A DNA stretch of 64,000 bases, taken from positions 17,801-81,800 of the forward strand of contig JAGAQH010000001.1 of NCBI GenBank assembly GCA_017622815.1, read 5' to 3'. A model generated the notes under the pieces. That model did not search any database, was not told where the DNA came from, and was given only the letters and a program-made list of their open reading frames with translations. Position 1 is the first letter of the stretch. Every line of letters begins with the position of its first letter. Positions 13,056 through 63,673 of this stretch are shown here, piece by piece. The DNA comes from Bacteroidaceae bacterium. GTDB lineage: Bacteria > Bacteroidota > Bacteroidia > Bacteroidales > Bacteroidaceae. The translations under genes and the position numbers were made by a program.

Positions 13056-13072
13056 CATTAATGTTTTTAAAA

Positions 13073-13133: not shown

Positions 13134-13155
13134 CTACCATAGCTCACCGTTAACG

Positions 13156-14334: not shown

Positions 14335-14406
14335 ATTCTTTATGTTTTTGTGAATGTTAAGGGTGCCTATAGTCGCTGTCGTTCCTATAGGCACCGTGAA
14401 ATAATC

Positions 14407-16938
14407 TTATTTACTACTCTTCAGGTACGAACCGATGGAGAGCAGCCATGCCACGATTACGGAAACCACGATACCTGTGGCACCGAACAGGAAGAGGTTG
14501 GCATCTGTACATTCGCTCATCCAGAACACCACAGCCTCACCTGCCACGAAACCTATGAGTGCGGCATAGCCCTTGACACGCTTCATGAAGACTGCCATGA
14601 AGAAGAGGCCGCCCAAACCGCTGGTCAGCAGGCCCAAGGCGCTATTGAAGAAGTCGAGGAAAGACTGCACGTTCCATGTGGCCATGAAGAGTGCCAAAAC
14701 CAGACCTATCAAACCGCTCAGCATGGAACTCCATCGTGCCACACCCAACAACTGATGGTCGGTGGTGCTGGGGCGGAAGCGCTTCCAGAAGTCTATGGAG
14801 AATGCCGTGGACACACTGTTGATATTGCTGGAGATGGTGCTCATGGTGGCCGCAAAGATGGCCGCAATGAGCATACCGGCAATACCGGCAGGCATCTGAC
14901 TCATCATGAAGAAGGGGAAGATGGCATCGGACTGACCCATGGTTACGTCCAACTCGGTGGGGTGTGTCTTGTAGAACGTGTACAGACCTGTACCTATCAT
15001 GTAGAAGGCAACAGAGACGAACACGCTCATAAGGCCGTTCACCAAAATGCCACGACCGGCTGATTTCTCGTCGGGGGTGGTCATGAAACGCTGGATCACC
15101 GTCTGGTCAGAGGTGTAGGAGATAAGGTTGTTGGCCAAACCTCCGATGATGATAACCCACCATGTGGCCTGCGACCACGAGTTGCTCCAATCGAAGAGGC
15201 GCAACTTGTCGTTCTCCAGTGCTATGTCTATGCATCCCGTCACACCGCCTTCGGTGTTCACGGCCAGGTATATTACGGCAAAGATGGCACCGCCCACCAG
15301 AATAAGGCCCTGCACCACATCGCCCCAGATAACGGCTTCCACACCGCCCATGGTGCAATAGACGATGGTGATAAGTCCCATGAGCACGATGCACAGGTAG
15401 ATGTCAATACCCGTTACCGCAGTCAGGGCCAGCGAAGGCAGATAAAGCACCATGGCCATGCGCACTATCATGAACACGCAGAAGAGGAACGATGCCAGCA
15501 GACGTGTGGCCAGATTGAAGCGTTGCTCCAATACCTCATAGGCACTGGTGACGTTCAGTTTGCGGAAATAGGGAAGATAGTACTTTATTACGGGGAAACT
15601 GATAAGCAGTATCATCCACAACATGGGATAGTACGTCCAGTCGGTGGTATATGCCTTGGCAGGGATGGTCATGTAGGTGATGGCCGAAAGCATGGTGGCA
15701 TAGATGCTGATACCTGCCGCCCACCAGGGTATGCGTCCGCCTCCCTTGAAGAAATCGTCGGCACCCTTTTCCTTACGCATGAAATAGAAGCCCATGCCAA
15801 GCATGGCCAGAAGGTAGATGGCAAGCACTGTCCAGTTGAGCCAGCCGAAGTTCTTCTCGTTGGTCAACTCCACGTGTGTCACGTCGGCACTGCGCACACC
15901 GGGCATCAGTTCGCCACCGCTATAACTCCAGCCTTTGCCGCCCACTTCGGGAGTGAGGCATGCACCTGCCCTTGCCAGGAGACTGTCGCCGGGGAGCAGG
16001 CCCCAGGCATCGGTGATGGTGTGATAGGTGAGCACATCCTTGCGGAAACGATACCATTCGGGGGTGTGGCGCAGATAGAGACTGTCCTGACGACCCTGTA
16101 TGGCACTGAGGAAAATTTCATAGTCGACACCACCGAAGAATGCCACATGGCTGTATCCGATGGACGTACAGGTACTGCCCACTATGGCCTGACGGCAGAG
16201 TTCACGTCCGCCGTCTTGGGTATTGTCCACCCATACGGATGCCGGTGCGGTACGCTTCCACTGGGACGCGGAAGCATTGCCCTTCTTCAGTTCGCTGACA
16301 GGCATGTACACGGCATCGGTGTGCACCGCCGGCGCCAACCCCAGGGAATCAATCTTCGGCTGATAGCCACCGAAGACAAACAGGCAATAGCCGGATGCGG
16401 TGTTCTGCACGGCCACACATGGCTGCAGACGGCACTCGTCGGGCAAGGTGGCAGCCAATGTCCATTCCTTGGCATCGCCTGGATATTGCAGAGAGTACAC
16501 CTCCTTGTTGGGCACGCCGAAACATTGTCCGCCTGCCACCCAGATGGTTCCGTCGTGATAGGTGGCCGCAAAGTTGTCAAGTGCCTTTGGCAGATAGGGG
16601 ATGGGGGAAATCTTGGCGTCTACGGCATTGTGGAAGACGCACTCGCTGAATGCCCCCATGGCATCCATACCTCCCATGTAGACGGCACCTCCGGGAACCT
16701 GCACACTGGCGCCATAGGCTCTGGGGTGATATACCTTCTGCCCGCCATCGGCACAGGGCACGTCGGGGAAGTTGCATCCGCCGGTAATCATCAGTTTGTC
16801 CATAATCCAACCTGCATAGTGGCCGGATACGGCTTGCTTCATGGGAATACCGGTGGGGGTGACGACAACACGGTTCTGTCCCATGCTAAGCAAGGGACAG
16901 AGCACTAATAACATTAACAGATATTTCTTCATCTTCAC
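14407..16938 (-). CDS. Kelch-repeat mutarotase (NanM-like) fused to a sodium:sialate symporter (NanT-like)
   Basis: 843 residues. A signal peptide (MKMKKYLLMLLVLCPLLSMGQ) leads into Kelch repeats up to about residue 355: AGWIMDKLMITGGCNFPD, RAYGASVQVPGGAVYMGGMD, TIWVAGGQCFG and CLFVFGGYQ. This matches NanM, the N-acetylneuraminate mutarotase. From about 366 (NWTVLAIYLLAMLGMGFYFM) a full SSS-family transporter follows, with GGGRIPWWAAGISIYATMLS and FAATMSTISSNINSVSTAF near the sodium site. One polypeptide could therefore equilibrate sialic-acid anomers outside the membrane and import the sugar. It lies 16 bp after the lyase gene in the same operon. The transport substrate is inferred from context. 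Confidence 0.9.
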   Translation of the reverse strand: MKMKKYLLMLLVLCPLLSMGQNRVVVTPTGIPMKQAVSGHYAGWIMDKLMITGGCNFPDVPCADGGQKVYHPRAYGASVQVPGGAVYMGGMDAMGAFSECVFHNAVDAKISPIPYLPKALDNFAATYHDGTIWVAGGQCFGVPNKEVYSLQYPGDAKEWTLAATLPDECRLQPCVAVQNTASGYCLFVFGGYQPKIDSLGLAPAVHTDAVYMPVSELKKGNASASQWKRTAPASVWVDNTQDGGRELCRQAIVGSTCTSIGYSHVAFFGGVDYEIFLSAIQGRQDSLYLRHTPEWYRFRKDVLTYHTITDAWGLLPGDSLLARAGACLTPEVGGKGWSYSGGELMPGVRSADVTHVELTNEKNFGWLNWTVLAIYLLAMLGMGFYFMRKEKGADDFFKGGGRIPWWAAGISIYATMLSAITYMTIPAKAYTTDWTYYPMLWMILLISFPVIKYYLPYFRKLNVTSAYEVLEQRFNLATRLLASFLFCVFMIVRMAMVLYLPSLALTAVTGIDIYLCIVLMGLITIVYCTMGGVEAVIWGDVVQGLILVGGAIFAVIYLAVNTEGGVTGCIDIALENDKLRLFDWSNSWSQATWWVIIIGGLANNLISYTSDQTVIQRFMTTPDEKSAGRGILVNGLMSVFVSVAFYMIGTGLYTFYKTHPTELDVTMGQSDAIFPFFMMSQMPAGIAGMLIAAIFAATMSTISSNINSVSTAFSIDFWKRFRPSTTDHQLLGVARWSSMLSGLIGLVLALFMATWNVQSFLDFFNSALGLLTSGLGGLFFMAVFMKRVKGYAALIGFVAGEAVVFWMSECTDANLFLFGATGIVVSVIVAWLLSIGSYLKSSK

Positions 16939-16954
16939 TCAGGGGCAAGGAGGC

Positions 16955-17881
16955 TTAGAACTTGTTGCAACGCTCAAAGAAACCTATTGCCTCCAGTTCG
17001 GCACGCATGGCATCCTCTTCCTCCTGGGTAAGGTTCTGGAAGGGGGTGCGGTTGGGACCGAGGTCGAGACCGATGAGTTTCATTATGCGCTTGCCACCCA
17101 CGATGTTGCCACGGAAATGGCAGATGACGTTGATAACCTCCTGAGAGAAGTTCTGCAACTCGCGTGCCTTCTCCAGGTCGCCCTGCTTCCAGGCATCAAT
17201 GATGCCCACGAGGTTGACACCGTTGTAGTTGGTGGTTCCGCCTATGCCGCCCTGTGCACCGCCCATGGCCAGCGAGGGCAGGATGGTCTCGTCCTGACCG
17301 TGAAGCATGTCAAACTTGCCACCGGCATAGAGACGGCACTGGTTGTATTCATAGATGCTCTCGTAGGTGTACTTGATACCGGCAAAGTTGGGTATGCGTC
17401 CGTCCACGGCCTCCAGCAACTTCACCATGGGCAGGAATGCACCGTTGAAGGCAGGGATGTGGTAGTAGTAGAACGGCAGGTCGGGAGCGCCGGCGGCTAT
17501 CTCCTCGCAGTATTTTACCAGTTCCTCTATACGTCCGATCTTTGGGAATGGAGGTGCCATGGCACCAATGCCCCATGCACCTATCTTCTGGGCGTGCTCG
17601 GCAAGCATGCGTGAGTTGCGCACACAACATGAGCCTACATGAACGATTACCTTGAATTCACATGGCAATGCCTTGGCAGCCTCCACCCAAGCCTCGGCCA
17701 GGCGCATGCGCTCGTCCTCGGTGAGCATGTAGCCCTCGCCGCTGCTACCGTTGATGAAAACACCCTGCATACCGTTCTTCTGCAACATGGCGGCATATGC
17801 GGGAATGGGTTCCAGGTTCACGTCTCCGTTGGCGTAGAACGGAGTGAATGGGGCATCGATAAGTCCGATTATCTTTTCCAT
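16955..17881 (-). CDS. nanL: N-acetylneuraminate lyase (DHDPS/NAL family)
   Basis: 308-residue TIM-barrel aldolase that splits N-acetylneuraminate to ManNAc and pyruvate. Visible sites: GSSGEGYML (carboxylate-binding GSxGE loop), YYYHIPAF (catalytic Tyr) and AGIKYTY with the Schiff-base lysine. YHIP and GIKYT are typical of lyases of the sialic-acid branch rather than lysine biosynthesis. The next gene, 16 bp away, is the sialate mutarotase-symporter, and an AGE epimerase follows. This reproduces the Bacteroides nanL-nanE-nanT logic, with gene order lyase, transporter, epimerase. Confidence 0.93.
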   Translation of the reverse strand: MEKIIGLIDAPFTPFYANGDVNLEPIPAYAAMLQKNGMQGVFINGSSGEGYMLTEDERMRLAEAWVEAAKALPCEFKVIVHVGSCCVRNSRMLAEHAQKIGAWGIGAMAPPFPKIGRIEELVKYCEEIAAGAPDLPFYYYHIPAFNGAFLPMVKLLEAVDGRIPNFAGIKYTYESIYEYNQCRLYAGGKFDMLHGQDETILPSLAMGGAQGGIGGTTNYNGVNLVGIIDAWKQGDLEKARELQNFSQEVINVICHFRGNIVGGKRIMKLIGLDLGPNRTPFQNLTQEEEDAMRAELEAIGFFERCNKF

Positions 17882-50511: not shown

Positions 50512-51405
50512 TTACTGCATCATGCCTCGCGCCCCTTCATAAGAGCAACTCTCAGCACCCACTTTCTGTGCTTCATTCAGAGCTGTTTCCAAATCTGATT
50601 CTAAGAGATCGCATATTCCAAACATTACTTTGTCTTTGAACAAATTATTAATCAAAGCAGCCGCTGTCCAGTCACCCGCACCAGCGGTATCCACCACTTT
50701 TTCATTTGCAACAGGTTCCAAGTGCTTCCAATCGCCCCTCAAACGGTAGCTCAAGCCCTTTGCTCCTTGCGTCTGGATAAACAGCTTACCCTTATAGTCT
50801 TTAAACTGATTAATGTCTTTTATCCTCTGTTCCGAGAACTTGACTATATCGGACACCTCAACACATTTGTTGAACAGGCTGACATTACCTCCTCTGCTGG
50901 AAGGCTCAAAGAATATCACCGAACCCTTCTCCTTGAATGTAGTGGCTAGCTTCAAGATGGCGGGTGAAACCCTGTCAAAGAAGAATACCTTTGGCACAAA
51001 GTCTATCCTCTCGATCACCTCATTCACCTGTTTCAGCGTCAGCGACTTGAAGTCCAGATAGAACCGCCCGATATTGTTGCGCGATTCAAACTTGTGTGTG
51101 TGAACACCATCCTTGTTAATGAAGTTACGCTGCACGATCACCGGTGTCTTACCGTCTTGGGTAGAGACAAAATTAGTGTGTACACGGTGCTTTTTCATGT
51201 CATCCAACACCCTCACCCCGTCTTTCGTGCCATCCAGACGGGCTATTGGATAGGTATCCCAACCCATGTGGGAGAGAATCATCATCACATTACCGCATGT
51301 GCCACCCACGTAATAGGATATGGGGACTCTTTGCCCGTCCCAAATCAACACATCCAGGCTAATCAGGCCTGCTCCAACAACTATATTATTTGTTTCAAGT
51401 TTCAT
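50512..51405 (-). CDS. PfkB-family carbohydrate (ribokinase-like) kinase
   Basis: 297 residues. N-terminal GAGLISLDVLIWD and YVGGTCGNVMMILSHMGWDT (substrate GG motif), and the C-terminal signature VDTAGAGDWTAAALINNLF with the catalytic Asp in GAGD. It should phosphorylate a sugar or nucleoside with ATP. It lies immediately downstream, on the same strand, of the broken AbiE locus, which is followed upstream by the SIS-HAD/PRTase/ATPase operon. All genes from 59.1 to 50.5 kb point the same way. A role with the upstream sugar-phosphate genes is possible but unproven. Confidence 0.88.
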   Translation of the reverse strand: MKLETNNIVVGAGLISLDVLIWDGQRVPISYYVGGTCGNVMMILSHMGWDTYPIARLDGTKDGVRVLDDMKKHRVHTNFVSTQDGKTPVIVQRNFINKDGVHTHKFESRNNIGRFYLDFKSLTLKQVNEVIERIDFVPKVFFFDRVSPAILKLATTFKEKGSVIFFEPSSRGGNVSLFNKCVEVSDIVKFSEQRIKDINQFKDYKGKLFIQTQGAKGLSYRLRGDWKHLEPVANEKVVDTAGAGDWTAAALINNLFKDKVMFGICDLLESDLETALNEAQKVGAESCSYEGARGMMQ

Positions 51406-51428
51406 GATTCAAGTTTCAAGATTCAAAC
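51400..51428. repeat. Short tandem array at the PfkB start
   Basis: Copies of TTTCAAGATTCAA / TTTCATGATTCAA with a period of about 9-12 bp, spanning the PfkB ATG and the end of the AbiEii remnant. Confidence 0.55.
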
Positions 51429-52224
51429 TACAGGATTAAGTCTCTCCACCAACTCCGCTTTCACCTTTTCCCACGCCACCTGTGGGTCATACTCCACCTG
51501 TGGCCCAAGAATCATTTCCGTGTCCGTCAGGAATTCCTCATCCTGTAGTTTCCCGTCCATATTCAACAAAAACTCTTTGTATGTAGGCAGGTGCGATGCT
51601 GTAAAGCCCAGATACCGCTCATAGCTCTCCATCACTTTCCCTTTATCCAACTCGGGGTGCATTGATAGTATCTTCCACAGATCAAATAGGTCACGTCCTT
51701 TTCTCCGCTGATACACAGCCCTCAGTTTCGTCCCTGTCAGCTCTGCCAACTCATAGGTTAGCACTTCGCAAGCACCTTTGAACCACGAACTATTCACCGC
51801 AAAAGGTACCCTAACCATTGGAAATACCTAGAAATGCTCCTTGCAGTTAATCTCCACCTTCAAGTGAATCTCCCCCGCATCCATATCCGTCGGCTGCACC
51901 TTGAACACCAGCGTATTGTTGTGTTTCTTCTGCTTCACCACCGGCTCACCCAGCCAAGCCAACGCGTCCCTTAGATGGTCTATCGTCTCTTTGATGGGTT
52001 CTGCCTTCACTTGCACCAGATCGATGTCCTCCGAGTATCTGGGCTGCGGCTTCAGATACAACTCCCAATGCCGTGCCACCTCTGAACGCCAGATGCTCTG
52101 CAATAAATGCATCGCTATAAATAGACACTAACGCACGGCAGACTATCAAATCCTGTTCGATGAATTTATTAACCACCCACGGGGCCTGCTCGCTCCATTC
52201 CGTAATATATCGCTCTGGTATCAT
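51423..52224 (-). pseudogene. AbiEii nucleotidyltransferase toxin, inactivated by frameshift and stop codon
   Basis: The gene starts at 52224 with an ATGA overlap of the antitoxin stop: MIPERYITEWSEQAPWVVNK ... AEHLAFRGGTAL. There the frame is lost (about 52080); the next part continues in another frame as ELYLKPQPRYSEDIDLVQVK, the nucleotidyltransferase core, to INCKEHF. A TAG at 51828-51830 then interrupts the same frame, after which VFPMVRVPFAVNSSWFKGAC continues to the natural end. Two lesions mean no full-length toxin. AbiEii is the toxin of the type IV AbiE abortive-infection system. Confidence 0.88.
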
Positions 52225-53027
52225 AACTCGTCAATCTCGATGGTTTCGTTCACAATAATTCTCCACTTGGCATTCCTTTCGCATCCCTCGCTGCTCTTTC
52301 CTGCCTTTAAGGGCACATACTGGAGCACGAACCCGGAACACTTCAACAGACTGTACACCGACTCAGCCGCTTCACCTTCCTCCAGCACCTCGTCCAGAAT
52401 ATAGCCCAGACGCTGCAGACTGGTTACCGGCACCTCCTTCACGAAGTCAGCCCCCAAACGCCCGAAATCCAGTTTCTCTGCCAGTTCAGCCAGAACAGTA
52501 GCTGCCCTCGAAACGCTGCCTGTCTTAGCCTGATACGTCAGCAGATCTACTGCCGTCAGTTCAGGACACGACACGTTAATGTAGCCCGTCCGCGTCTGCC
52601 GTCTCTCCACGTATGCCTCAGGAATATGACTCTTGCAGAAATAATGCGTAAGGTATTTCTCTCCCTTCTTGTCACGCATGGCGGGAGGCTCTATCATCAC
52701 ACTGAACCGTAGCGGGACTTGATGCGAAGCTCCGTGATAACTTGCAGCACTCAACAGAGCCACATAATATTTGCGTCCCAAGTGGTGCATCATGTCGTCC
52801 AAGTAAAACGACTGCGGCACAGCCCCGCGCAGCACATACTCATCTGGCACTATAACATAGAAGCCGCGCAAGGGCGACATAATCCGTCCCTTGCTCACCT
52901 CTCTGGTCAGCGCCCGTGCAATGCTGCCGGCACTCATATCAGGGAATGCCTGTGCCACCTCATCGTGTGTGAAGGTGTAATTGCCTCTAAGCGGCTTATC
53001 ATATATCCAGCTTGCTATGCTTGCCAT
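52221..53027 (-). CDS. abiEi: AbiEi-type antitoxin (transcriptional regulator)
   Basis: 268 residues. N-terminal winged helix (FTHDEVAQAFPDMSAGSIAR, then EVSKGRIMSPLRGFYVIVPD) and the AbiEi antitoxin domain (RKYYVALLSAASYHGASHQV, INVSCPELTAVDLLTYQAKT, then VSRAATVLAELAEKLDF). AbiEi represses the operon and counters AbiEii. The reading frame is intact while the toxin gene is broken. A full promoter lies 26 bp upstream (53053-53085). Confidence 0.93.
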   Translation of the reverse strand: MASIASWIYDKPLRGNYTFTHDEVAQAFPDMSAGSIARALTREVSKGRIMSPLRGFYVIVPDEYVLRGAVPQSFYLDDMMHHLGRKYYVALLSAASYHGASHQVPLRFSVMIEPPAMRDKKGEKYLTHYFCKSHIPEAYVERRQTRTGYINVSCPELTAVDLLTYQAKTGSVSRAATVLAELAEKLDFGRLGADFVKEVPVTSLQRLGYILDEVLEEGEAAESVYSLLKCSGFVLQYVPLKAGKSSEGCERNAKWRIIVNETIEIDEL

Positions 53028-53157: not shown

Positions 53158-54240
53158 CTACACGTATGGCTCACCATTTATCCACATCAAAAAAGGTTCG
53201 CTATGTTCATTCGCCTCAATAATCTTCTTCTTGTCTGCAATATCATACTTTGAAGAGTTCACATTATAAACCTGAACCTCGTCCTCATATTTCAGCCCTA
53301 TCAGCAGCACTCCAAGAGCCAAAAGTTTGCTCGTCAACAAAGCGAATCCGAAGCATATTTGTCCGTCAATCAGTTTCAACGTATCTTTATAGTCCTGCAT
53401 CAATTTTTCCAGTCGATTGTACAACTCGAACGGGTCACGCTCTGGCGCATATAGCAGGTTTTGCGGCTCCACTTTCAGGGTATCTGTTAGGAAATCATTA
53501 TACTCCCACAGCAATTGGTCTGAACGTCCAGGCTCTTTCGACGGGAAAGGCAAAACAGGGCAAACTTCTTTAGGATGGAATGTGTCATACACTAGTTTCA
53601 GATGCTCCTTTTTATCTTCACCCATCAGCGGAACAAAGATATTGATGGGGTTGAAAACCGACTCCATGCCGTAGGATGCCCTGAAATTGTACAGAGGAGT
53701 TATCGTTTCTTCGTTGTATTTCTTTTTGATCAACTTATCTATCTCCACATTCTCCGACACGGTGATGAAGAAATTGGTCTGGTCATACTGTGTCTTGTCA
53801 TAGAGCAATTTGGCGATATTGTAATAATACGCACAGGGGATGGCACTGACATCCAAGATGATATCAGTATATGCCGTATATGTAATCTGGTTCAATTGCC
53901 TGAGCATACTTTTGATACGGTTGTCCCATGAGAGCTTTGCGTCAATGGTTATCGTCTTATAGGATACGCTCTTTTCATTCATCAGTGCCTCAAACTCTGC
54001 CACATTCAGCTTATAGAATTCATCTCCGTCCGTTTCTTCCTGTGCTGGAAAGTCAACGGCCAAGCAATCCAGAGATTGGTAGGCCAAATCCTCAAATATC
54101 TTCTTCAAAGTATTGTTCATCCTAGGGTCAAAGCCTTTTCCCATCACGAACAACAACTTAGCGTTTCTTTGGGCATAGTAACTCTTCCAAAATTCAGAGA
54201 CTTTTTCCTGCTGAAAGAACATATAAGAATTCCACTTCAT
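53158..54240 (-). CDS. Uncharacterised Rossmann-like protein of the SIS-HAD/PRTase/ATPase operon
   Basis: 360 residues, no signal or TM segment before the C-terminal hydrophobic stretch FGFALLTSKLLALGVLLIGL (about 315-335). The N-terminal third has alternating strands and helices with AKLLFVMGKGFDPRM (28-41) and TDIILDVSAIPCAYYYNIAK (125-144), like a Rossmannoid domain with a Gly-rich loop and DxSxxP turn. I do not recognise the family. It is the last gene of the operon, 14 bp after the ATPase gene, so it may be the effector or a regulator. Confidence 0.7.
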   Translation of the reverse strand: MKWNSYMFFQQEKVSEFWKSYYAQRNAKLLFVMGKGFDPRMNNTLKKIFEDLAYQSLDCLAVDFPAQEETDGDEFYKLNVAEFEALMNEKSVSYKTITIDAKLSWDNRIKSMLRQLNQITYTAYTDIILDVSAIPCAYYYNIAKLLYDKTQYDQTNFFITVSENVEIDKLIKKKYNEETITPLYNFRASYGMESVFNPINIFVPLMGEDKKEHLKLVYDTFHPKEVCPVLPFPSKEPGRSDQLLWEYNDFLTDTLKVEPQNLLYAPERDPFELYNRLEKLMQDYKDTLKLIDGQICFGFALLTSKLLALGVLLIGLKYEDEVQVYNVNSSKYDIADKKKIIEANEHSEPFLMWINGEPYV

Positions 54241-54254
54241 AACTCACTCTTTCT

Positions 54255-56126
54255 TTATAACCAGGATTTAATCTGATCAACCTTCAACTTACGCCAGCCT
54301 CCGTAGTTCAACGGGATGCCTGCATATACACATAATGCACGGTTTAAATAGAACACCGACCACAACTGACCCTTCTTCCCTTGTAGTTCATCAAGTCTTA
54401 GTGTCAGAAGGTTGTAGGCCACACAAGTTCTCAATAAATCTATCAACTGTGCATTTTCAGGGTCTTTATGCCAAGGTACATTCTTTTTCTGCCGCCGCGT
54501 TCCAAAATCATCATTCACGGCAAAGCCGCTGACAGTCCTGTACGAATAACTATCTGTAAAAGTCTGCTTCCTACAGAAGTCAATCATCCTCAGCAGAAAG
54601 ACTTTCATTTCGTCGCCACGTGGCATCTTCTCTATTCTGGAAAAATACTCAGCAGCCTTATCCCTGATAACCTCATCTTGTTCCTTTGCCGTCAGCGAGT
54701 AATCCGTAGGGCTCGTTATCTTCTTCGCTGTAATACGGCTGAACAAGGCTGAAGAGAAATCGAGGAACTGCTCAACGTTCACATTTGCCACATTGATAAG
54801 CGTCTTCTCACCATAATACTTAGGCAACCCCAACTCCGCAGGCAGTATCTCTTCTGTAGCCTTCAAGGTTTCACCCAACAGGGAGTTAATTTCCTCCGGC
54901 TCATACGGGAACAGGCGCATGGTCTCAACCACTTCGGATTTGCGGTTGGCAAACATCAAAAGTGCTCTGGCATTGTAAGCCCGCTCCTTTATATCCATTA
55001 TTGATTCTATGGCTTTGATAAGGTTTTCGTATGATCGTATTTCAGGATTGGTGGAGAGTTTATGCAAATATTTCTGAGCTCCAGCCCAATATTTCTGTTC
55101 CCACTCCCCTTCATCACTATTGGCCAAAAGCATCATCAAGTCTATGTCTGCCATAGCGTATGTCGACCGCCTGTTGGCAATCAATTTGACCATCTTTTCG
55201 AACTCGATAGATTTTTTATCCTTATACTTGTCCAACTCTATGACTTGGTAGTCCCGTTCCTGCTTGTCAGTTTCCAGCAGTTCGCTTGACACCAGGTTGT
55301 CCAGCCTCTCTGCAATCCAAAAAGTGACGTTCAATCGCGTTTCAATGCATACTTTTTCAAGAGTACTGCGCTGTTCTTTTGTCAACTTATGGGCATCGTC
55401 AAGTTGGAAAATGAATTCTTCACAAAGAGTATGCCCCGGATAGGAAAACCACTGCACATTCATCAACGGCAGCACAAACAGCGACGAACAGGAGAACACA
55501 CTGTTCCCCTCCCGCTCGAAGGAGTTGATGGCTTTGTATATCTCTTTTTCTTTCTCCGAAGCCCAGTCCAACAGGTCTTTGCAACTGCATCTTGTTCTCG
55601 GGAAATCCAGTTCAGCATCCAGGATGTTGGCATCCTGTGGCGTGTACGCTATCTTATACAAGTCTTCAGAGCCCACTCCCGTTAACCTCATCAACGTTTT
55701 AATGGTGGCAATCACAAAGCGTACATTGAGCAATGCCAAAAACAGGGAAGTCTGCTCAGCCCTGGAGTACATCTCCTCGTCATCAATTAGGGCATAGTCG
55801 CTTCGCGTCAACAGATAGACAGCGCAGCGTTTGATTCTGTTCTTGTCCTTGACATCCAGTTTATTCAATGCCTCAAACACATCCCTCGTCTCCTTGTTGT
55901 GACTCACAATCTTCTTTAGGACGGTAGGATAGAAAATACGCAACAAGGAGGTCTTTCCAAATCCCGGAGGGCTTTGGATAAACGTCACGAAATGCCATAA
56001 CTTACCTTCATTGTTCTGTTTTTGCAGTTTCCTCATAGGCTCTGTGGAGAACAACTTCAAAAACAGTTCGTCAGAATCGATATTCTCGGTAGTGCGCAGT
56101 GCAAAAGGATTTGATGGTCTATCCAT
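54255..56126 (-). CDS. ORC/CDC6-like P-loop ATPase of the operon
   Basis: 623 residues. Walker A QSPPGFGKTSLLRIF at 51-65 and Walker B FIFQLDDAHKLTKEQR with the acidic pair at 243-244; sensor-like TFWIAERLDNLV about 30 residues later. The N-terminal segment (NPFALRTTENIDSDELFLKL) and overall pattern resemble ORC/CDC6-like AAA+ proteins found in bacterial conflict systems. The rest is helical with no obvious nuclease motif. It ends 14 bp before the Rossmann-like gene and starts one base after the PRTase-like gene stop. It would be the NTP-driven sensor or switch of the system. Confidence 0.8.
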   Translation of the reverse strand: MDRPSNPFALRTTENIDSDELFLKLFSTEPMRKLQKQNNEGKLWHFVTFIQSPPGFGKTSLLRIFYPTVLKKIVSHNKETRDVFEALNKLDVKDKNRIKRCAVYLLTRSDYALIDDEEMYSRAEQTSLFLALLNVRFVIATIKTLMRLTGVGSEDLYKIAYTPQDANILDAELDFPRTRCSCKDLLDWASEKEKEIYKAINSFEREGNSVFSCSSLFVLPLMNVQWFSYPGHTLCEEFIFQLDDAHKLTKEQRSTLEKVCIETRLNVTFWIAERLDNLVSSELLETDKQERDYQVIELDKYKDKKSIEFEKMVKLIANRRSTYAMADIDLMMLLANSDEGEWEQKYWAGAQKYLHKLSTNPEIRSYENLIKAIESIMDIKERAYNARALLMFANRKSEVVETMRLFPYEPEEINSLLGETLKATEEILPAELGLPKYYGEKTLINVANVNVEQFLDFSSALFSRITAKKITSPTDYSLTAKEQDEVIRDKAAEYFSRIEKMPRGDEMKVFLLRMIDFCRKQTFTDSYSYRTVSGFAVNDDFGTRRQKKNVPWHKDPENAQLIDLLRTCVAYNLLTLRLDELQGKKGQLWSVFYLNRALCVYAGIPLNYGGWRKLKVDQIKSWL

Positions 56127-56127
56127 A

Positions 56128-57261
56128 TCAATGTCTGCTTATACGTGGGAACAGCCCCCTGAATTTATTTGTATCTTCCCATATTACGGGCATCGTATTG
56201 TTTGGTGTGTTGTGGGATAGCACCAGCAGCAGGCCACACTCGTTAAAGCCCCAGTAGGGTTCATCGTGTTTGCCCTTCCGGTAACTGTCGGTCAGTATGG
56301 ATGACCAGTCGTAGTACTTATCTTTTTTCAGTACATTCTGGAGGCCAGGATGGGTCTTGATAAGATTTATCTCTTCCGTCTTAATTAGCTGGACACAATC
56401 CACATTGAACTGTATCAGATCATTCATACCGTTGTCGGATATATATTTTTCCACTTCACACTTGATATTCGCTATGGCCTCCTCTGTAGCCACACAGAAA
56501 AGGACGTTGACCTTGACTTGACCTTTCACGAAAAGGTCTGAAAGTTCTTTTGACTCATCATCAAGAGCTCCTTCAGAGCCTGTTTCCTTGGGTTTCATAC
56601 CTCTCAAGACTTTTATGATTTTGCCTTTGAACTTGTCGTCTTCCTTTCTAGCAAAACTGGTTCCGCTCGCGGTGAAGTCATCCACAAGAAACAAAGACTC
56701 AAACAGATTCCTATTGGTTCCTTTGAGCAAATCGTCCTTACGCAGTTCATCATACATATCCTGCAATTTCTCCTGATTGGGATAGTACATTGGGAGCACC
56801 TGCTCATTGCTGAAACTCGCCGTGCGTCTGAGAATATCTATGTGCGAACCATCGCTCAACCCCACTACTAAAGAGAGACGCTTCTGAATCTTGTATTCCT
56901 GTGAGTTCTCAATCTTGTTCAACTGGTATCTCGACAATCCAGCCTTGCTTGCAGCAAGGTCTCTAATGAACGGCTTTATCTTTGAACTGTACATCAAGTC
57001 CACAAGATACTTGATCTGCTCAGGGGATATGAACGTCAGATACTTATTGAATGCAGAATAGATGGTTTCCACATCCTCTTTGTCAAATTGTGACATCCAC
57101 TGGGCAAAACTCGAAATAAACCTGAAGCCAGGGTCAAACTGGCTATAGGAATCATATTTCGTCCTGGCCATGAAGGACAACTTAGGAAGCTCCTTGCTAA
57201 GGCGCTTGTCATCCCACTTTGTGACCTTTGCTAACAATGAAACTGCAAGATTGTCATTCAT
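56128..57261 (-). CDS. Phosphoribosyltransferase-like protein of the operon
   Basis: 377 residues. The PRPP-binding motif FLVDDFTASGTSFARKEDD (191-209) is the VDDxxxSGT signature of type I phosphoribosyltransferases; LFCVATEEAIANIK and NVDCVQLIKTEEINLIKTHP follow. The N-terminal 150 residues are helical. It may attach or remove a ribose phosphate on a base or protein. The start overlaps the SIS-HAD stop by 4 bp. PRTases next to ORC/CDC6-like ATPases have been proposed in computational surveys as immune components; I recall this but cannot verify it here. Confidence 0.82.
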   Translation of the reverse strand: MNDNLAVSLLAKVTKWDDKRLSKELPKLSFMARTKYDSYSQFDPGFRFISSFAQWMSQFDKEDVETIYSAFNKYLTFISPEQIKYLVDLMYSSKIKPFIRDLAASKAGLSRYQLNKIENSQEYKIQKRLSLVVGLSDGSHIDILRRTASFSNEQVLPMYYPNQEKLQDMYDELRKDDLLKGTNRNLFESLFLVDDFTASGTSFARKEDDKFKGKIIKVLRGMKPKETGSEGALDDESKELSDLFVKGQVKVNVLFCVATEEAIANIKCEVEKYISDNGMNDLIQFNVDCVQLIKTEEINLIKTHPGLQNVLKKDKYYDWSSILTDSYRKGKHDEPYWGFNECGLLLVLSHNTPNNTMPVIWEDTNKFRGLFPRISRH

Positions 57262-59153
57262 ACGCTAAACTTACACGTTATCTTTCCTTCGTTTGCCTTC
57301 ATGCGGCTTAGGTAATAGAGGGTTGCATCAAGTCCTTTCATGCCTGACGGGGCTATGTTCCAGCAACTCTCCGCATTCTTTGATACACGATCAACGCTCA
57401 ATGAGTACTTACTGGTCAGCATTTCATAGTCATTGCCTTCCACGGTTCCATAATCACCTATGCACAAAGTACGCTCCGGGTCTTCTATCACTCGTTGTTT
57501 GCTCACTTCATGGTAAACCACAATATCCACACTGTGACTGCTACGCCAAATACGGATGTCTTTCATCTGCTTGTCCCAGATGATTTCACGGCATGTCTCA
57601 TAAACAAGTTGTGATTCCGTCTGGGTCATTTCACCCTCAATGGACAGTTGAAGGCTGCGCTCAGCAAATTTGTAGTCCACACAGCCCTCGGGGAGTCTAA
57701 GTTTCAGTTCCTCCTCCAGTGCTTTCAGTTCACTATCAAAGGGCTGTTCCCTCCACACTTTCAGTTTATCCTCTTCGCCTAAAACCAACAAGCAGGCACC
57801 ATTATAGTAGCCCACCTTGATTTGCGGCCAGTATTTCTGGTCTATGGATTCTTGGAACGACTCGCCAACCGACTTGCCACGACCTGTGGCTACCACTATC
57901 AGTGCTCCATTTTCTAACAATGGAATCAACGCATCTCTTATCTCATCGCACAACCTATTCGTAAAACGGCTTTTGCGGTCGGGGGCAGAGAGCGTACCAT
58001 CGTAGTCGAAGGCTATGGTGGTAAACTTACCCCTGTTCAACTGGTGTACAAAACGTTGGCAGGCCACGCTGTAATGCTCCCACAAAGGGGTGTTGTCTCT
58101 ACCAGCTACGCCCAGTTTACGCAACACCGCCACATCGAGTGTCTTTTGTACGGGCAGGATACGGTTGGTTAACTTGAAATAGTTCAGGTTGTAGAGCACA
58201 CGACCGTATCCTGGCACACCTGGTTTTCCGGGGTCAATGCCACGAGCCTCGCCCAAGTCGTTGACAAAACGAAATGCTTTCAGCAGCATATCGATGGACG
58301 CTGCGGTGGTCTGCAACTCAGTTTCAATAAAGATAACCGGTACACTCTTGGGCAGGCAACCAATGGTTTTATAAGTCAGTTCGCGTTCAACGGGTGTGAC
58401 TAATGCAATAATGCAAGAGTTCTCGCCCCGCTTGTCAAACCAATGGTGACGGCCATGACCAAAGTTGCGGTAATCGCTAAGCAGGGCTGAGCCCAAAGCG
58501 GCCTCTGTCAGTTTGGATTCAATATCCCAAGCTACGGATTCGCCTGCTGCCCCATAAAGAACGATGAAGTTCTGAATGTTGGCAAGGTTAAACTCATAGT
58601 TTTTGGAATAGGTTCCGTCAAAGGCTATCTTGTCGCCTACAAGTTTGCCATCGAAACTGCGGTTCAAGAGGGTGAAAGTGGCAAGCAGTGAATTGGTGGC
58701 CAGAAAGCCATCTTTCTCGTTGGGGATGTCTTCACACCAGTGTAGCACCTTGGGATATTGATTCAGCAATTCCTCCGTGGGATTGTTCTTGCGGAGGGTC
58801 AGGCTCATCATGCCCGTCTCGTTATACTTTACGCCATACTTAACGGCATTCAGTATATCCTTATTCTTACCACTGGCACTAAGGAAAAGCAGTTTGCTGC
58901 TACGCAACACCTCACGCCCTGAATACATCAACTGCAAAGGAGTCATAGCCTGCGCCAACACACCATTGCGCTGCTGATAGAGTTGGACTGCATAATGGCA
59001 AGCACTAAGCGAACCACCAGAGCCAATGCACACCAGAGGTATCTGTTTGTTCTCTACAAACAAAAACCATGCAAGACGCGTCACATCCTGCTGCTCAGCC
59101 CATCGAATGGTATCCGAAAGCATCTTCAACTCTCCCTTAAATGGCTTTCCCAT
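57258..59153 (-). CDS. SIS-domain / HAD-hydrolase fusion protein of the operon
   Basis: 631 residues. Residues 1-340 form a double SIS-like sugar-phosphate-binding domain (IPLVCIGSGGSLSACHYAVQ, LLFLSASGKNKDILNAV, FGHGRHHWFDKRGENSC). Residues 375-615 form a HAD phosphatase: AFDYDGTLSAP (383-387 = DYDGT nucleophile), VVATGRGKS (motif II) and CIGDYGTVEGNDYEML (motif IV). It would act on a phosphorylated sugar or nucleotide. It is the first gene of the operon. A -7 box lies at 59198-59205. The GRHHWFD segment suggests a possible active-site His cluster in the SIS part. Confidence 0.85.
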   Translation of the reverse strand: MGKPFKGELKMLSDTIRWAEQQDVTRLAWFLFVENKQIPLVCIGSGGSLSACHYAVQLYQQRNGVLAQAMTPLQLMYSGREVLRSSKLLFLSASGKNKDILNAVKYGVKYNETGMMSLTLRKNNPTEELLNQYPKVLHWCEDIPNEKDGFLATNSLLATFTLLNRSFDGKLVGDKIAFDGTYSKNYEFNLANIQNFIVLYGAAGESVAWDIESKLTEAALGSALLSDYRNFGHGRHHWFDKRGENSCIIALVTPVERELTYKTIGCLPKSVPVIFIETELQTTAASIDMLLKAFRFVNDLGEARGIDPGKPGVPGYGRVLYNLNYFKLTNRILPVQKTLDVAVLRKLGVAGRDNTPLWEHYSVACQRFVHQLNRGKFTTIAFDYDGTLSAPDRKSRFTNRLCDEIRDALIPLLENGALIVVATGRGKSVGESFQESIDQKYWPQIKVGYYNGACLLVLGEEDKLKVWREQPFDSELKALEEELKLRLPEGCVDYKFAERSLQLSIEGEMTQTESQLVYETCREIIWDKQMKDIRIWRSSHSVDIVVYHEVSKQRVIEDPERTLCIGDYGTVEGNDYEMLTSKYSLSVDRVSKNAESCWNIAPSGMKGLDATLYYLSRMKANEGKITCKFSV

Positions 59154-59348: not shown

Positions 59349-59945
59349 TTGACGAAAATGACAACGAACAAGCAATTCAACACCTACAAGGAGGGGCTGG
59401 ACCTGGAGTTCCTGCGCACGTACTGCATGGAGCATGGGGAACGGCGAACGTTCGAGCGGGGCGAGACGCTGGAGGAGGCGGGTGAGCCGGCACAGTGGGT
59501 GGCCTTCGTGGAGCGGGGCTGCTTCAAGTACATGGTTCACAACGACGAGGAGGGCAAGGACTACTGCACGGGCTTCGCCTTCGAGGGCGAGTTTGTAGCC
59601 GACTTCCCCTATTGCCTCGACGGTGACGTGTCGGAAGTGAGCATTGAGGCGGACATGCCCTGCGAGGTGCGCATCATCAGCGGACGCGAGCTGCAAGCGC
59701 TGTTCGACAGTGACCCGAAGATGATGCTCCACAACGTGCGGATACTGAAGAACCTGTTCAAGATGGTCTATGGACGTGACCTCGACCACTACCGCTACAC
59801 CGCCCGCAGCCGCTAACGTCGGCTCATCGACCGCTGTCCGCAGGTGATGCAGATGCTCTCGCTGAAGGATATCACCTCGTTCCTCAACATCACGCCCAGT
59901 TATCTGAGCACACTCCGCAAGGAAATGACGTTTGGGCAGAAATAA
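59349..59945 (+). pseudogene. Crp/Fnr-family regulator cut by an in-frame stop before its HTH
   Basis: Residues 1-155 form a cyclic-nucleotide-binding-like domain (FERGETLEEAGEPAQWVAFV, FKYMVHNDEEGKDYCTGFAF, then ADFPYCLDGDVSEVSIEADM) and the hinge LDHYRYTARSR. A TAA follows at 59814-59816. The same frame then continues for 42 codons as RRLIDRCPQVMQMLSLKDIT, then SFLNITPSYLSTLRKEMTFG, the expected Crp/Fnr HTH, to a TAA at 59943. The nonsense codon removes DNA binding. A shortened sensor domain could still be made. Confidence 0.85.
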
Positions 59946-60140: not shown

Positions 60141-61310
60141 ATGTCAGAAGATAAGAATATCAATATGGAAGAAGACCTTCTAGAAGGAGAATCTTATAAT
60201 TCTTCTGCGGAAGTGAATGAAGTTTATCCAAATGCTGAAGTTCGTGTCACGAGGGCTCAGTATAGCACCTTGCATATTAAGCGTTTGGTTGAAGACAGGA
60301 AAGAACTTATAATTGATCCCGATTTCCAACGAGGAAATGTTTGGGCTAAGAAACAAGGAGCCGAGCTTGTTGAGTCCATCCTCATGGGCATTCCCATTCC
60401 TGTCATGTATCTGTTTGAGATGCGTGACGGTAGTAAGCAAGTGGTTGATGGTCGCCAGCGAATAGCTGCTATCTTGGATTTTCTTAATGACAAATTAATA
60501 TTGAGAGACTTGAAAATTTTACCTGAATATAATAATTTCAAGTTCTCCGACTTAGATGCCAAAATGCAAGGTATATTTGAGGATTCTCAAATGTATTTCT
60601 ATATTATTCAGCCCCCCACTCCTGAGCGGGTTAAATATGATATCTTCGACAGAGTCAATAGAGGTGGTACGCGTTTGACAAATCAAGAGATGAGAAACGC
60701 TTTGTATCGTGGAAAATCGACAAGACTGATTTCAGAGTTAAGCAAGTCAGAAGAGTTTCTCAGGGCTACGGGGCATGGAATCAGTTCCAAACGCCAAAAA
60801 GACAATTATGTTGTCCTGCGTTCTATATCATTCTATCTTCTTTATAAGAAATCGGAAATTGTCTTGAAACAAAATGGTGAATCCATTGAGTATAAAAGTG
60901 ACATTGATGATTTCTTGGCCAAGATGATGATTTTCATTAACGAAAAGGCATCTGATGAACTCATTGCTGATTGTCGCGCCATGTTTTTACGTGCAATGAA
61001 CAATAGTTATGATATTATGGGTGAAGACGCATACCGCTTTGCCGCGTATGAAGACGAGAACGGGAAAAGTCGAAAGCGTCCCATCAATATGCCTCTTTTC
61101 GAAATGTTAGTTTTCATCTTCTCTGATGATTGTGTAACGACAAATAAGCTTGTTACTCGAAATGCCATAAACAAATTCAAGGAATCATACGACTATCAAA
61201 AGATGTTGATGTCGAATGTCGATTCTTCAACAAATGTAACAGAGAGATTCACAACCGCCCTGAAACTAATAAAACAAATTAAAGATGATACGTCAAATAA
61301 CAATCAATAA
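60141..61310 (+). CDS. DUF262 (ParB/GmrSD-N-like) protein, first gene of an AT-rich operon
   Basis: 389 residues. The DUF262 core is LIIDPDFQRGNVWAKKQGAE (about 58-77) and KQVVDGRQRIAAILDFL with DGRQR at 102-106, then FDRVNRGGTRLTNQEMRNAL. These motifs form a ParB-like nucleotide-binding/hydrolysis site as in GmrS. No GmrD-type HNH domain is fused. It overlaps the ATPase gene by 26 bp. Its base composition is clearly more AT-rich than the housekeeping genes, suggesting transfer. Role: probably the NTP-using control or sensor part of a defence module. Confidence 0.85.
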   Translation: MSEDKNINMEEDLLEGESYNSSAEVNEVYPNAEVRVTRAQYSTLHIKRLVEDRKELIIDPDFQRGNVWAKKQGAELVESILMGIPIPVMYLFEMRDGSKQVVDGRQRIAAILDFLNDKLILRDLKILPEYNNFKFSDLDAKMQGIFEDSQMYFYIIQPPTPERVKYDIFDRVNRGGTRLTNQEMRNALYRGKSTRLISELSKSEEFLRATGHGISSKRQKDNYVVLRSISFYLLYKKSEIVLKQNGESIEYKSDIDDFLAKMMIFINEKASDELIADCRAMFLRAMNNSYDIMGEDAYRFAAYEDENGKSRKRPINMPLFEMLVFIFSDDCVTTNKLVTRNAINKFKESYDYQKMLMSNVDSSTNVTERFTTALKLIKQIKDDTSNNNQ

Positions 61311-62298
61311 CTTCAGGGGGATAGAATCTGAAGTTTTAGATATAAAGCCATTAACCCTTTTGACAGGGCTTAACTCTACAGGCAAGTCTACATTTTTCCA
61401 AGCTATTTTGACTTCCTTGTATTATAATAATGGAACCAATGCAAATATAATGTTGTCATCATTTGATTTCTCCTTTGCAACAAATCGCAATAGGAATGTT
61501 AATGCGAAGTCTTCTTATATAGAGGTCGTTTGCGATAACGGAGAATCGTTTGAGACGGAAATGTTAGGTGAATATAAAGTCGTTTCAAAAAAGAATACTG
61601 AGGTAGATTTGGAAGATTCATTCTACTATCTTTCTGCTAATCGTTTGGCATTTAATCAAGATATGGAAACAGTTTCCCCTAAATACAAGGTTGGTGTTCA
61701 GGGAGAATATATATTCGGATCTTTTGAGACAGAAAAGTCAAGAAGTCTGGATGTAAAACTTGTTAAAGACAAAAATTCGGAAACGCTTTCCGCCCAATTG
61801 AATTGGTGGCTTACATATATTCTTGGCATTAAGTTTGAGTTGGAGACAGAGAAAATAACGTCCAACCGGGTTAAAGTCATTTACAAGAGCAACAATCTTC
61901 CAAATCTTGCTCCTCAGCAATTAGGTGTGGGAGTCAGCTATCTCGCCAAGATACTGATTACATGTCTTAGGGCAAAGAAAGGTGACACACTGATGCTTGA
62001 AAATCCAGAGATTCATTTGCATCCTGCTGCCCAGTCAAGACTTGGTGAATTCTTTGTGTATATAACCAATGCAGGTATACAACTTCTAATAGAGACACAT
62101 TGTGAGAATCTGTTAAATAAGATTCAGTATGAGGTCTATAAAAATCATATTAATCATACCGATGCCGTTCTCTATTATAAAGGTGGTATCACAGATCCCT
62201 TCCAGCGTTTGGATTTTATGAGCAATGGTAAATTCAACGCAGAATTCCCAGAAGGATTCTTCGATGCCACATTGGTCGAAATGCTTGAAATGGATTAG
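61285..62298 (+). CDS. ABC/OLD-like ATPase of the operon
   Basis: 337 residues. RecF/OLD-type architecture: INNFRGIESEVLDIKPLTLL then TGLNSTGKSTFFQAIL (Walker A), FYYLSANRLA, the ABC signature region QQLGVGVSYLAKILITC, Walker B LMLENPEIHLHPAAQSRLGE and H-loop IETHCENLLNKIQ. No TOPRIM domain follows, unlike OLD nucleases; the C-terminus is short (FPEGFFDATLVEMLEMD), as in DUF3696-type ATPases. It starts inside the DUF262 gene and ends 5 bp before the PLD-like gene. Confidence 0.85.
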   Translation: MIRQITINNFRGIESEVLDIKPLTLLTGLNSTGKSTFFQAILTSLYYNNGTNANIMLSSFDFSFATNRNRNVNAKSSYIEVVCDNGESFETEMLGEYKVVSKKNTEVDLEDSFYYLSANRLAFNQDMETVSPKYKVGVQGEYIFGSFETEKSRSLDVKLVKDKNSETLSAQLNWWLTYILGIKFELETEKITSNRVKVIYKSNNLPNLAPQQLGVGVSYLAKILITCLRAKKGDTLMLENPEIHLHPAAQSRLGEFFVYITNAGIQLLIETHCENLLNKIQYEVYKNHINHTDAVLYYKGGITDPFQRLDFMSNGKFNAEFPEGFFDATLVEMLEMD

Positions 62299-62303
62299 GA
62301 ACT

Positions 62304-63041
62304 ATGTCGAAAGGAAAATACCAAGTTGTTCTTGACGATGAACTTTTTAAGGACTATCACAAGTTCAAGAAAGGTGAGAAGTTGGAAAAAGACGAAGTTG
62401 AGCGAATCAAATGCCTGCTTCACTATTTCAAAGGAGAATTGATTACAAACATAGCTCAATATGAGAGAACTGGGTTACCTCTTGATATAGCACTAAAAAA
62501 GAAATTGGCTCAGAGTGGATTGAAGAAGCAGTCAAACGAAGAGCTGGCCCAGTCACATACCACCTACAAAGTTATTCTTTGTTGTGGACGATGTGATTTT
62601 CCTTATGTCAACGTCACATCAAGTGAAGAGAAAATTGAAAACAATCTCTCGTCCTTTTATGACATTGCAGAAAAGCGCGACAAAGCTATCAAGCACCTAA
62701 AGGCACTTTGCATAGGTGCAAAGAAAATTGTCGTTTATGACAAGTATTTTGCTGAACCAGACAAGGAAGCACGGAATATTGGAACTCTCATAAAGATTCT
62801 TCCACAAAAGAAACTCACCATTTTGCTTTCTGCAATTACTCCAAACGGCATACAAACATTGAAAGATACATGTGTTGACTGGGAGCCTCAGTTAGACAGC
62901 ACTTTAAAAGGCCGACATGACAGGTATGTTATAGTTGATGACAAATTGGAAATAGTGTTATCAAGCGGTTTTGACCATCTTAGTGCAGACTCCAGTGACT
63001 TCATGTATGTTGTGCGAGTTACTGATAAATCCAGATTCTGA
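62304..63041 (+). CDS. PLD-like nuclease candidate of the operon
   Basis: 245 residues. The C-terminal half has one phospholipase-D-like motif: KGRHDRYVIVDD (H205-x-R207-x4-D212) followed by IVLSSGFDHLSADSSDFMYV. This HxRx4D...SSGFDHL version, with Arg in place of Lys, appears in PLD-fold proteins of bacterial conflict systems. The N-terminal half (VERIKCLLHYFKGELITNIA, then YKVILCCGRCDFPYVNV) is unknown. As the last gene of a three-gene operon with an ATPase and DUF262, it is the best effector candidate. Two terminators follow. Confidence 0.7.
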   Translation: MSKGKYQVVLDDELFKDYHKFKKGEKLEKDEVERIKCLLHYFKGELITNIAQYERTGLPLDIALKKKLAQSGLKKQSNEELAQSHTTYKVILCCGRCDFPYVNVTSSEEKIENNLSSFYDIAEKRDKAIKHLKALCIGAKKIVVYDKYFAEPDKEARNIGTLIKILPQKKLTILLSAITPNGIQTLKDTCVDWEPQLDSTLKGRHDRYVIVDDKLEIVLSSGFDHLSADSSDFMYVVRVTDKSRF

Positions 63042-63211: not shown

Positions 63212-63673
63212 ATGCAAAATCATGAGCGTATGAAACAAAAAACACATTATTCTGAGGCCCTGGCCTATCTGCGCGACTACTGTCTGCGCCATGGCAGGCT
63301 CATGCACTTCTCGCATGGCGACATCTTTGAGGCCGAGGGAGCCGCTGCCCGCCTCTTTGGTTACATTGAGAGCGGCAGTTTCCAGTACCTTGTCCGTAAC
63401 TACGAGGGTGGCGAGAGCACGGTCGAGACCGTAGCTGCTGGCGACCTTGTGGGCTGCTATCCCTACTGTCTCGACGGCGATGCCGCTCCCGTCACCGCCC
63501 GTGCCGACAAACCCTGCACTGTCTATGTCGTTGATAGTCAGCAGCTCAACCAGCATTTCCTTCAGAGCAAGGAGGCCGCCCAGGTTGCGCTCCAGTTCCT
63601 TAACTACCGCTTCGCCCAGCTCCATCAGCACCGTCGCCAGTATCATTTCACCCATCAGCCCGAGGACGAGTAA
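63212..63673 (+). CDS. Crp-like cyclic-nucleotide-binding-domain protein without HTH
   Basis: 153 residues: GDIFEAEGAAARLFGYIESG, SFQYLVRNYEGGESTVETVA, GDLVGCYPYCLDGDAAPVTA. It is clearly related to the Crp-like gene at 59349 (shared PYCLDGD and ADxPCxV). It ends LHQHRRQYHFTHQPEDE after the hinge helix, and no HTH is encoded in any frame before the next gene. So it is either a natural single-domain sensor or a truncated regulator. It lies 82 bp before an ECF sigma gene and could influence it. Confidence 0.8.
   Translation: MQNHERMKQKTHYSEALAYLRDYCLRHGRLMHFSHGDIFEAEGAAARLFGYIESGSFQYLVRNYEGGESTVETVAAGDLVGCYPYCLDGDAAPVTARADKPCTVYVVDSQQLNQHFLQSKEAAQVALQFLNYRFAQLHQHRRQYHFTHQPEDE

Follow-up and report, generated by a model that had tools for sequence, protein, structure and literature searches.

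The subject of this analysis is a stretch of 64,000 nucleotides from a Bacteroidaceae bacterium (contig JAGAQH010000001.1, positions 17,801 to 81,800), called the window in the following, and within it a run of four minus-strand genes, A to D, that is followed on the same strand by a fifth gene, K. With a confidence slightly short of even, we read the five genes as a mobile conflict system, probably directed against phages, in which a predicted phosphoribosyltransferase (PRTase) effector is provided with its own repair enzymes and kept under the control of an ATPase and a sensor. Central to this reading are the replacement of B, C and D as one block between related loci, with A and K as the constant part, and the recurrent pairing of this class of PRTase with NADAR proteins.

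Composition of the Five-Gene Unit

Gene A (57258-59153, minus strand, as for all genes of the unit) encodes a SIS-HAD fusion of 631 aa (Pfam Hydrolase_3, E 1.1e-5), in which residues ~1-350 are double-SIS-like by reading of the sequence and residues ~375-631 constitute a HAD-IIB phosphatase. Gene B (56128-57261, 377 aa) is a PRTase-CE protein, a predicted type-I PRTase, with a PF24390 match of E 7.9e-20 and 72.2 bits against a cut-off of 27; it retains the DD motif that binds phosphoribosyl pyrophosphate (PRPP) and also matches PADLOC PRTase_III-A with E 3.9e-19. Gene C (54255-56126, 623 aa) encodes an ORC-CDC6-like ATPase of the AAA+/STAND (signal transduction ATPases with numerous domains) type, with a PF24389 match of E 1.7e-25 and 90.3 bits against the same cut-off of 27. 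Gene D (53158-54240, 360 aa), which the first-pass annotation had described as an unknown Rossmann-like protein, is instead a member of the CARF6 family and thus a predicted ligand sensor: the match to PADLOC PDLC01910 has E 5.5e-100 and covers the full length (residues 1-359), and 13 of 13 aligned members match as well. The fifth gene, K (50512-51405, 297 aa), encodes a PfkB/ribokinase-family sugar kinase (PF00294, E 3.2e-18). The earlier proposal of a four-gene module is therefore right in the linkage of A to D and too narrow in its extent, as K lies outside the region then delimited.

The four open reading frames (ORFs) and their spacing agree with the first description, A and B overlapping by 4 bp, B and C being separated by 1 bp, and C and D by 14 bp. 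The motifs that had been picked out are likewise all present, namely DYDGT and the SIS motif GSGGS in A, VDDFTASGTS in B, and the P-loop PPGFGKT and the Walker B element DDAH in C. These motifs are more than chance occurrences, as the catalytic residues are kept across alignments of 35 rows, from which rows shorter than 251 aa, the duplicates L001, L049, L051, L059 and L069, and the other-type L002 and L053 were omitted (loci used for comparison carry L numbers throughout). Thus, D383/D385 of the HAD domain are found in 33 of 35 rows, with gaps in the other two, and the SIS residues G44-G47 in all 35; D194 and D195 of the PRTase occur in 34 and 35 rows, respectively, Walker A residues G55, G57 and K58 of the ATPase in 35, and its Walker B residues D243 and D244 in 35 and 32. 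For K, residues D239, G242, G244 and D245 are present in 30 of 30 rows. For A, B, C, D, K and the AbiEi gene that lies between D and K, dN/dS was calculated against one to three relatives per gene (L034, L038 or L031), and each of the 14 values falls between 0.02 and 0.15. The four window genes A to D are real, intact, full length and under purifying selection. The sequence profiles of B and C returned no useful solved relative. The genome of the window (2.57 Mb, 88% complete) contains a single ORC-CDC6-like match.

Exchange of the B-C-D Block

The proteins of loci L034 and L035 are 97% (A), 99% (K) and 98% (AbiEi) identical, as compared to 46%, 40% and 45% for B, C and D. Between L035 and L040 the situation is reversed, with identities of 86% and 88% for A and K and of 95%, 98% and 97% for B, C and D. 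A plain difference in evolutionary rate was rejected as the explanation, because the identity ranking flips between these two pairs. At the DNA level, calculated in steps of 300 bases, L034 and L035 are 92-100% identical outside the block and 43-58% identical inside it, one border lying close to where A meets B and the other in the interval from D to AbiEi, so that the exchanged block, as delimited by this profile, the protein identities and the tree tests below, corresponds to 53158-57261 on the minus strand of the window. In L041, the whole A-D stretch is foreign (46% identity to the window for A, 35-37% for B-D), yet AbiEi and K are 95% and 91% identical to those of the window.

Trees of 14 rows (LG+G4) and approximately unbiased (AU) tests give the same picture. 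The combined B+C+D data group the window with L034 and L038, L035 with L040, and L033 with L039, each with support 100/100, and these three groups are rejected both by the A data (p-AU 4e-104, 1e-5 and 0.004) and by the K data (p-AU 0.0066, 0.0009 and 0.0003). Conversely, L034 and L035 are grouped by A (100/100) and by K (99/99), a grouping that B+C+D reject with p-AU 1e-77. The titles of L033, L034, L035 and L038-L041 indicate assembly from metagenomes, in which single chimeras are possible, but the pattern repeats over several pairs, which makes chimeric assembly an unlikely cause.

Our conclusion is that B, C and D form a co-adapted block that is passed on and replaced as a whole, with A and K as the constant part. 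As the three genes travel and are replaced together, they most likely constitute one switch-and-effector unit. The exchange also predicts which proteins touch, namely B, C and D, and which part of the system answers to the arms race.

Linkage and Distribution

A scan of genome contigs with protein A yielded 20 genome loci. Genes A, B, C and D occur together in 18 of these. The exceptions are L032, where the contig stops behind A, and L050, with a kinase and an A that has only the SIS part; no B was found in the genome of L050. K is present in 16 of the 20; the contigs of L031, L032 and L036 stop before its place, and L037 has another gene after D, followed by the contig end. In L042-L049, K follows D directly, with an overlap or at most 18 bp between them (measured in seven of the eight, L049 being near-identical to L045). 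Across distant groups the orders A-B-C-D-K, B-C-D-A-K and A-K-B-C-D are found, and such variable order with kept company speaks for selection on the linkage. None of the 25 largest gene clusters listed for the surrounding 6 kb adds a further family common to more than three loci.

When plasmids were searched with the homologue of A from L048, 18 records were obtained, 12 of which were read for gene content. All 12 carry A, B, C and D (some of them in pieces in L084) and 11 carry K, which in L073, L080 and L083 is located, alone or with more, between A and B. The hosts are mostly Rhizobiales, and also Paraburkholderia, Sphingomonas, Sulfitobacter and the actinobacterium Paenarthrobacter. Four viral contigs all contain B, C and D, three of them A (L070 begins at B) and three K. 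An A-B-C-D-K set is also present in a Desulfobacterales genome of L050's class. The expectation that the genes act as a unit and co-occur across genomes is thus borne out by these counts (18 of 20 in genomes and 12 of 12 on the plasmids fetched) and by this further genome. One locus, L079, holds a second B-C-D set (12892-17025), which comes after a NADAR and a helix-turn-helix gene and in which B is shorter (315 aa).

Overall, the set recurs in Bacteroidota, Pseudomonadota, Desulfobacterota, one Actinomycetota plasmid and viral contigs, and it is rare and patchy. A full-length A match was found in one of 395 Bacteroidota genomes, the window's own, with eight others matching short HAD stretches only; in one of 192 genomes of L050's class, besides the SIS-only centre genome; and in one of 274 of L048's class, L048's own. 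No record matching A was found in a collection of annotated phages. Rather than in core metabolic loci, the copies reside on plasmids and viral contigs, and several lie by genes annotated as integrases or as transposition or transfer genes. The context of this candidate defense system is mobile and patchy, beside AbiE and Nsn genes.

The ATPase/CARF6 Pair

Six other ORC-CDC6-like loci (L053-L058) were fetched, of which L053-L057 were tested for CARF6. A separate CARF6-matching neighbor is found at L053, L054, L055 and L057. In L053 the pair is accompanied by a PRTase-CE and a DNA methylase, in L054 and L055 by a calcineurin-like gene (Pfam-tested in L054, by layout in L055), and in L057 the CARF6 gene stands beside a kinase-fused ATPase. 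L056 has a DNA methyltransferase gene and, behind it (6060-9770), a single chain of 1236 aa that unites the kinase, the ORC-like ATPase and CARF6. It is because of these four neighbors and the L056 fusion that we treat C and D as a unit. The ATPase/CARF6 pair thus seems to govern interchangeable enzymes, B being the enzyme here. Weaker ORC-CDC6-like matches occur in 102 of 395 Bacteroidota genomes at E 0.001, 25 of them over the cut-off.

Signaling by cyclic oligoadenylate from a type III CRISPR system was considered as the source of the ligand of D and rejected, as neither of the two synthase families searched, Cas10 palm (PF22335) and SMODS (PF18144), is found in the window's 88% complete genome. 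Among 13 genomes, the Cas10 palm occurs in one (that of L050) and SMODS in three.

PRTase-CE Contexts and the NADAR Link

At E 1e-8, PRTase-CE is present in 17 of 395 Bacteroidota genomes. Of the 16 besides the window's, eight PRTase-CE genes adjoin a reverse transcriptase or are one small ORF away from it (four by Pfam, four by BLAST), five are directly followed by a NADAR gene (Pfam), two lie within long ORFs (L124, with an HD domain, and L118), and one belongs to L053. We read the eight reverse-transcriptase loci as retrons. In the window, no reverse transcriptase was found among the nine region proteins scanned, and B is placed between A and C. Gene B furthermore carries a conserved LSDGxxID-RR stretch, which could be aligned with none of the nine other PRTase-CE proteins compared. 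PRTases of retrons are considered probable effectors whose mode of action is unknown (PMC9122126), and the same source reports that E. coli is protected from T7 and lambda by a DprA-PRTase pair, whose PRTase may belong to PRTase-CE.

The two-gene PRTase-CE/NADAR unit was defined from the five Bacteroidota loci (L119:7772-9373, L120:8003-9620, L121:7756-9544, L122:7428-9144 and L123:8083-9766). A subsequent plasmid search by PRTase similarity alone gave three records, all three with an annotated NADAR 1-5 bp downstream. The unit is also present at L133, L134 and L135; in all of these loci the two genes overlap or are at most 16 bp apart, and the hosts are Bacteroidota and Gamma- and Alphaproteobacteria. 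NADAR genes also accompany the five-gene system, lying within or against it in 8 of 12 plasmid loci and on two of four viral contigs (Pfam-tested in L077 and L079); in L077 and L071 the NADAR is the first gene of the operon, and K was not found. In the PRTase tree, the 8 rows of the two-gene unit form a group of their own (96/95), apart from that of the five-gene system with its 14 rows (100/99), and the reverse-transcriptase-linked PRTases do not form one group.

According to the literature, riboflavin intermediates and guanine-ADP-ribose are substrates whose N-glycosidic bonds NADARs hydrolyze (PMC11543638, PMC11125620, PMC9503650). Of the two solved NADARs found, YbiA (2b3w) gives the stronger match to the operon NADARs, with E 7e-29 against 2e-11 for 8bau. 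Glutamate 131 was considered as the catalytic glutamate of the superfamily; the YbiA alignment has Asp at this position, and no claim is drawn from it. The partnership leads to a direct chemical guess, in which the PRTase makes an N-phosphoribosyl bond and the NADAR cuts it, and the two-gene unit is a candidate toxin-antitoxin pair based on phosphoribosylation.

Genes A and K

Hydrolase_3 is matched by 13 of 15 aligned members of gene A and SIS by two of 15. The closest solved relative of the first half of A, found by profile, is the SIS protein 8eol (E 2.5e-5), which is deposited as a glucosamine-6-phosphate deaminase and also as an isomerizing transaminase. The predicted model of A (mean predicted local distance difference test score 82.7, predicted template modeling score 0.55) has alpha/beta halves which, by reading of its structural elements, would fit two SIS-like folds and a HAD domain. 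The solved relatives of K at E 1e-8 or better are sugar kinases, including ribokinase/PfkB, fructokinase and ketohexokinase.

SIS, PfkB and HAD proteins also occur in ADP-heptose synthesis. A heptose pathway was nevertheless dropped from consideration, because the closest solved SIS relative of A is a glucosamine-6-phosphate deaminase and no nucleotidyltransferase is encoded among the five genes. Nothing fitting was found in the literature on heptose in anti-phage defense.

Proposed Mechanism and Alternatives

According to our proposal, the ATPase C and the ligand-binding CARF6 protein D would keep B inactive or active and react to a cue of infection. Once active, B would use PRPP to form an N-phosphoribosyl product on an amine or a nucleobase, which would be toxic or would deplete PRPP. 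A, with its SIS and phosphatase parts, and the sugar kinase K would dismantle, rearrange or recycle the N-linked phosphosugar, rendering leaky activity harmless, and in other lineages the NADAR N-glycosidase would help, or partly replace, A and K. The choice of B as the effector is suggested by the eight of 16 other PRTase-CE genes that lie near a reverse transcriptase and by the description of retron PRTases as probable effectors. The reversal chemistry is suggested by the recurrent PRTase-CE/NADAR pairing, given that NADARs cleave N-glycosidic bonds, and also by the deposition of the closest solved relative of A as a glucosamine-6-phosphate deaminase. Guardedly, and with confidence well below even, we put forward the possibility of a new immune chemistry, in which phosphoribosylation from PRPP is the toxic act, undone by NADAR in the two-gene pair and the plasmid copies or by SIS-phosphatase and PfkB in the five-gene system. 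Control would lie with the exchangeable ATPase/CARF/PRTase block, which bacteria would swap much as they do the specificity part of restriction systems. If true, this would account for a class of effectors and place PRPP beside NAD+ among the fuels of bacterial immunity.

Several observations weigh against this proposal. The CARF6 label rests on PADLOC models, and the profile of D has no convincing solved relative (best E 0.62). None of 13 genomes (the window's, those of L050 and L048, and 10 Bacteroidota with the system) contains a NADAR, as compared to three of 14 controls, so the window version would rely on A and K alone. The tie of A to the deaminase is remote at E 2.5e-5, the same chain being also named as an isomerizing transaminase. 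Finally, L050 has the SIS protein and the kinase without any B in the genome, and A and K may have a job of their own; this SIS-kinase pair may be ancestral or, equally, a decayed remnant.

The main competing explanation, which we regard as doubtful, is signal synthesis, where B, the HAD half of A, and K would, upon infection, build from PRPP a nucleoside- or nucleotide-like messenger that D binds, C executes or relays, and NADAR degrades. It agrees with the binding of small nucleotides by CARF proteins in known systems and with the reading of Ter-system PRTases and HAD phosphatases as makers of a nucleoside-like signal (PMC7824862); moreover, with neither Cas10 palm nor SMODS in the window's genome, the ligand of D would have to come from elsewhere. 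However, no CARF6-type partner lies directly by the PRTase in the eight reverse-transcriptase and five NADAR loci (as judged by our own D profile only, a weak argument), and B thus seems to work there without D. Signal makers would also more likely be expected in the constant part, yet B is exchanged together with D.

It is unlikely that the unit serves a purpose other than immunity, be it the maintenance of plasmids or islands in the manner of a toxin-antitoxin pair or an accessory metabolism of unusual aminosugars kept by mobile elements. The many plasmid copies (18 records) would fit such a role, as would the presence inside the operon of AbiE, itself a toxin-antitoxin pair, the metabolic families to which A and K belong, and the SIS and kinase genes that stand by themselves in L050. 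Against it, PRTase-CE, ORC-CDC6-like and CARF6 proteins are repeatedly met in the company of reverse transcriptases, DNA methylases and kinase-fused ATPases, and no transport or catabolic partner recurs within 6 kb among the 25 largest gene clusters listed. Very improbable, finally, is an altered nucleotide made by A, K and B that poisons phage replication, since, although a sugar kinase, a SIS isomerase-like domain, a phosphatase and a PRTase could in principle make an odd nucleotide, none of the five genes accounts for a pyrophosphorylated sugar donor or a nucleotide triphosphate step, and NADAR would destroy the product.

Returning to the preferred reading of a PRTase effector with its own repair enzymes, the component families are already named in Pfam and PADLOC, and the kind of system is known. 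The suggestion of the first-pass annotation that the PRTase and ORC/CDC6-like parts may be partly described agrees with the existence of the two Pfam families, and its theme of phosphosugars, PRPP and nucleotides fits as well; overlooked had been the kinase K, the membership of D in CARF6, the exchange of B-D as a block, and the PRTase-CE/NADAR link, the most informative of these on the chemistry. We found no publication on the combination of SIS-HAD, PRTase, ORC, CARF6 and PfkB, on the block exchange or on the PRTase-CE/NADAR pair; two works of 2020 may describe part of it. The DefensePredictor paper brings up both NADAR and PRTase domains, though not side by side (PMC13092281).

Neighboring Genes

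As noted previously, AbiE is a direct neighbor. The AbiEi antitoxin gene (52221-53027, minus strand; PF09407, E 5.1e-24) lies between D and K, followed by the AbiEii toxin gene (51423-52224, minus strand), which is disrupted, occupying two reading frames relative to the 267-aa homologue in L034 and being split into three ORFs; the mention of broken genes nearby holds for this gene. AbiEii is intact in L034 (PF08843, E 6.6e-34). AbiEi matches follow D in nine of the 20 genome loci, with K beyond them in seven and the contigs of the other two stopping there. AbiE as a working part of the unit was rejected: no AbiE match occurs in L042-L049, and L037 has a PDC-S01 gene (10202-11299) at that spot, which suggests a site of insertion. 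The gap between D and K seems to be a spot that takes up other defense genes.

The second defense-like operon that had been reported next door is also present, at 60141-63041 on the plus strand. Its three genes match PADLOC NsnA (E 3e-100), NsnB (E 4e-72) and NsnC (E 2.5e-59), which probably correspond to the Menshen system; a literature search for these names gave unrelated papers only. Short ORFs that read as Crp-like regulators are located at 59349-59816 and 63212-63673 of the window and at L031:2-349, and in both the window and L031 one of them diverges from gene A. A scan of positions 40000-64000 of the window for tRNA genes gave none.

Comparison with Known Systems

With type III CRISPR and the cyclic-oligonucleotide-based antiphage signaling system (CBASS), the present unit shares a CARF-type sensor, as labeled by PADLOC, and it differs from them in that a search of the window's genome brought up no Cas10 palm and no SMODS synthase. 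The DarT-NADAR (DarTG1) toxin-antitoxin system is similar in that a ribosyl group is attached and a NADAR removes it (PMC11543638). Unlike in that system, where DarT uses NAD+, the donor here would be PRPP; the operon NADARs are closer to YbiA, and the window version has none. Retrons with a PRTase effector employ the same PRTase-CE family, found near a reverse transcriptase in eight of 16 loci, whereas the present unit has no reverse transcriptase and control would be exerted by C and D.

The ORC-CDC6-like/CARF6 loci L054-L057 contain the same pair of ATPase and CARF6 but have another enzyme in the place of the PRTase, namely a calcineurin-like phosphoesterase in L054 and L055 and a Ser/Thr-kinase fusion in L056 and L057. 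Closest in composition are the PRTase-CE (PF24390) and ORC-CDC6-like (PF24389) systems, which have been described as predicted conflict systems. There, both families occur side by side with CARF6, and L053 has the same trio, with a DNA methyltransferase where the present unit has SIS-HAD and PfkB; the present B is further set apart by its LSDGxxID-RR stretch, as judged against the nine other PRTase-CE proteins compared.

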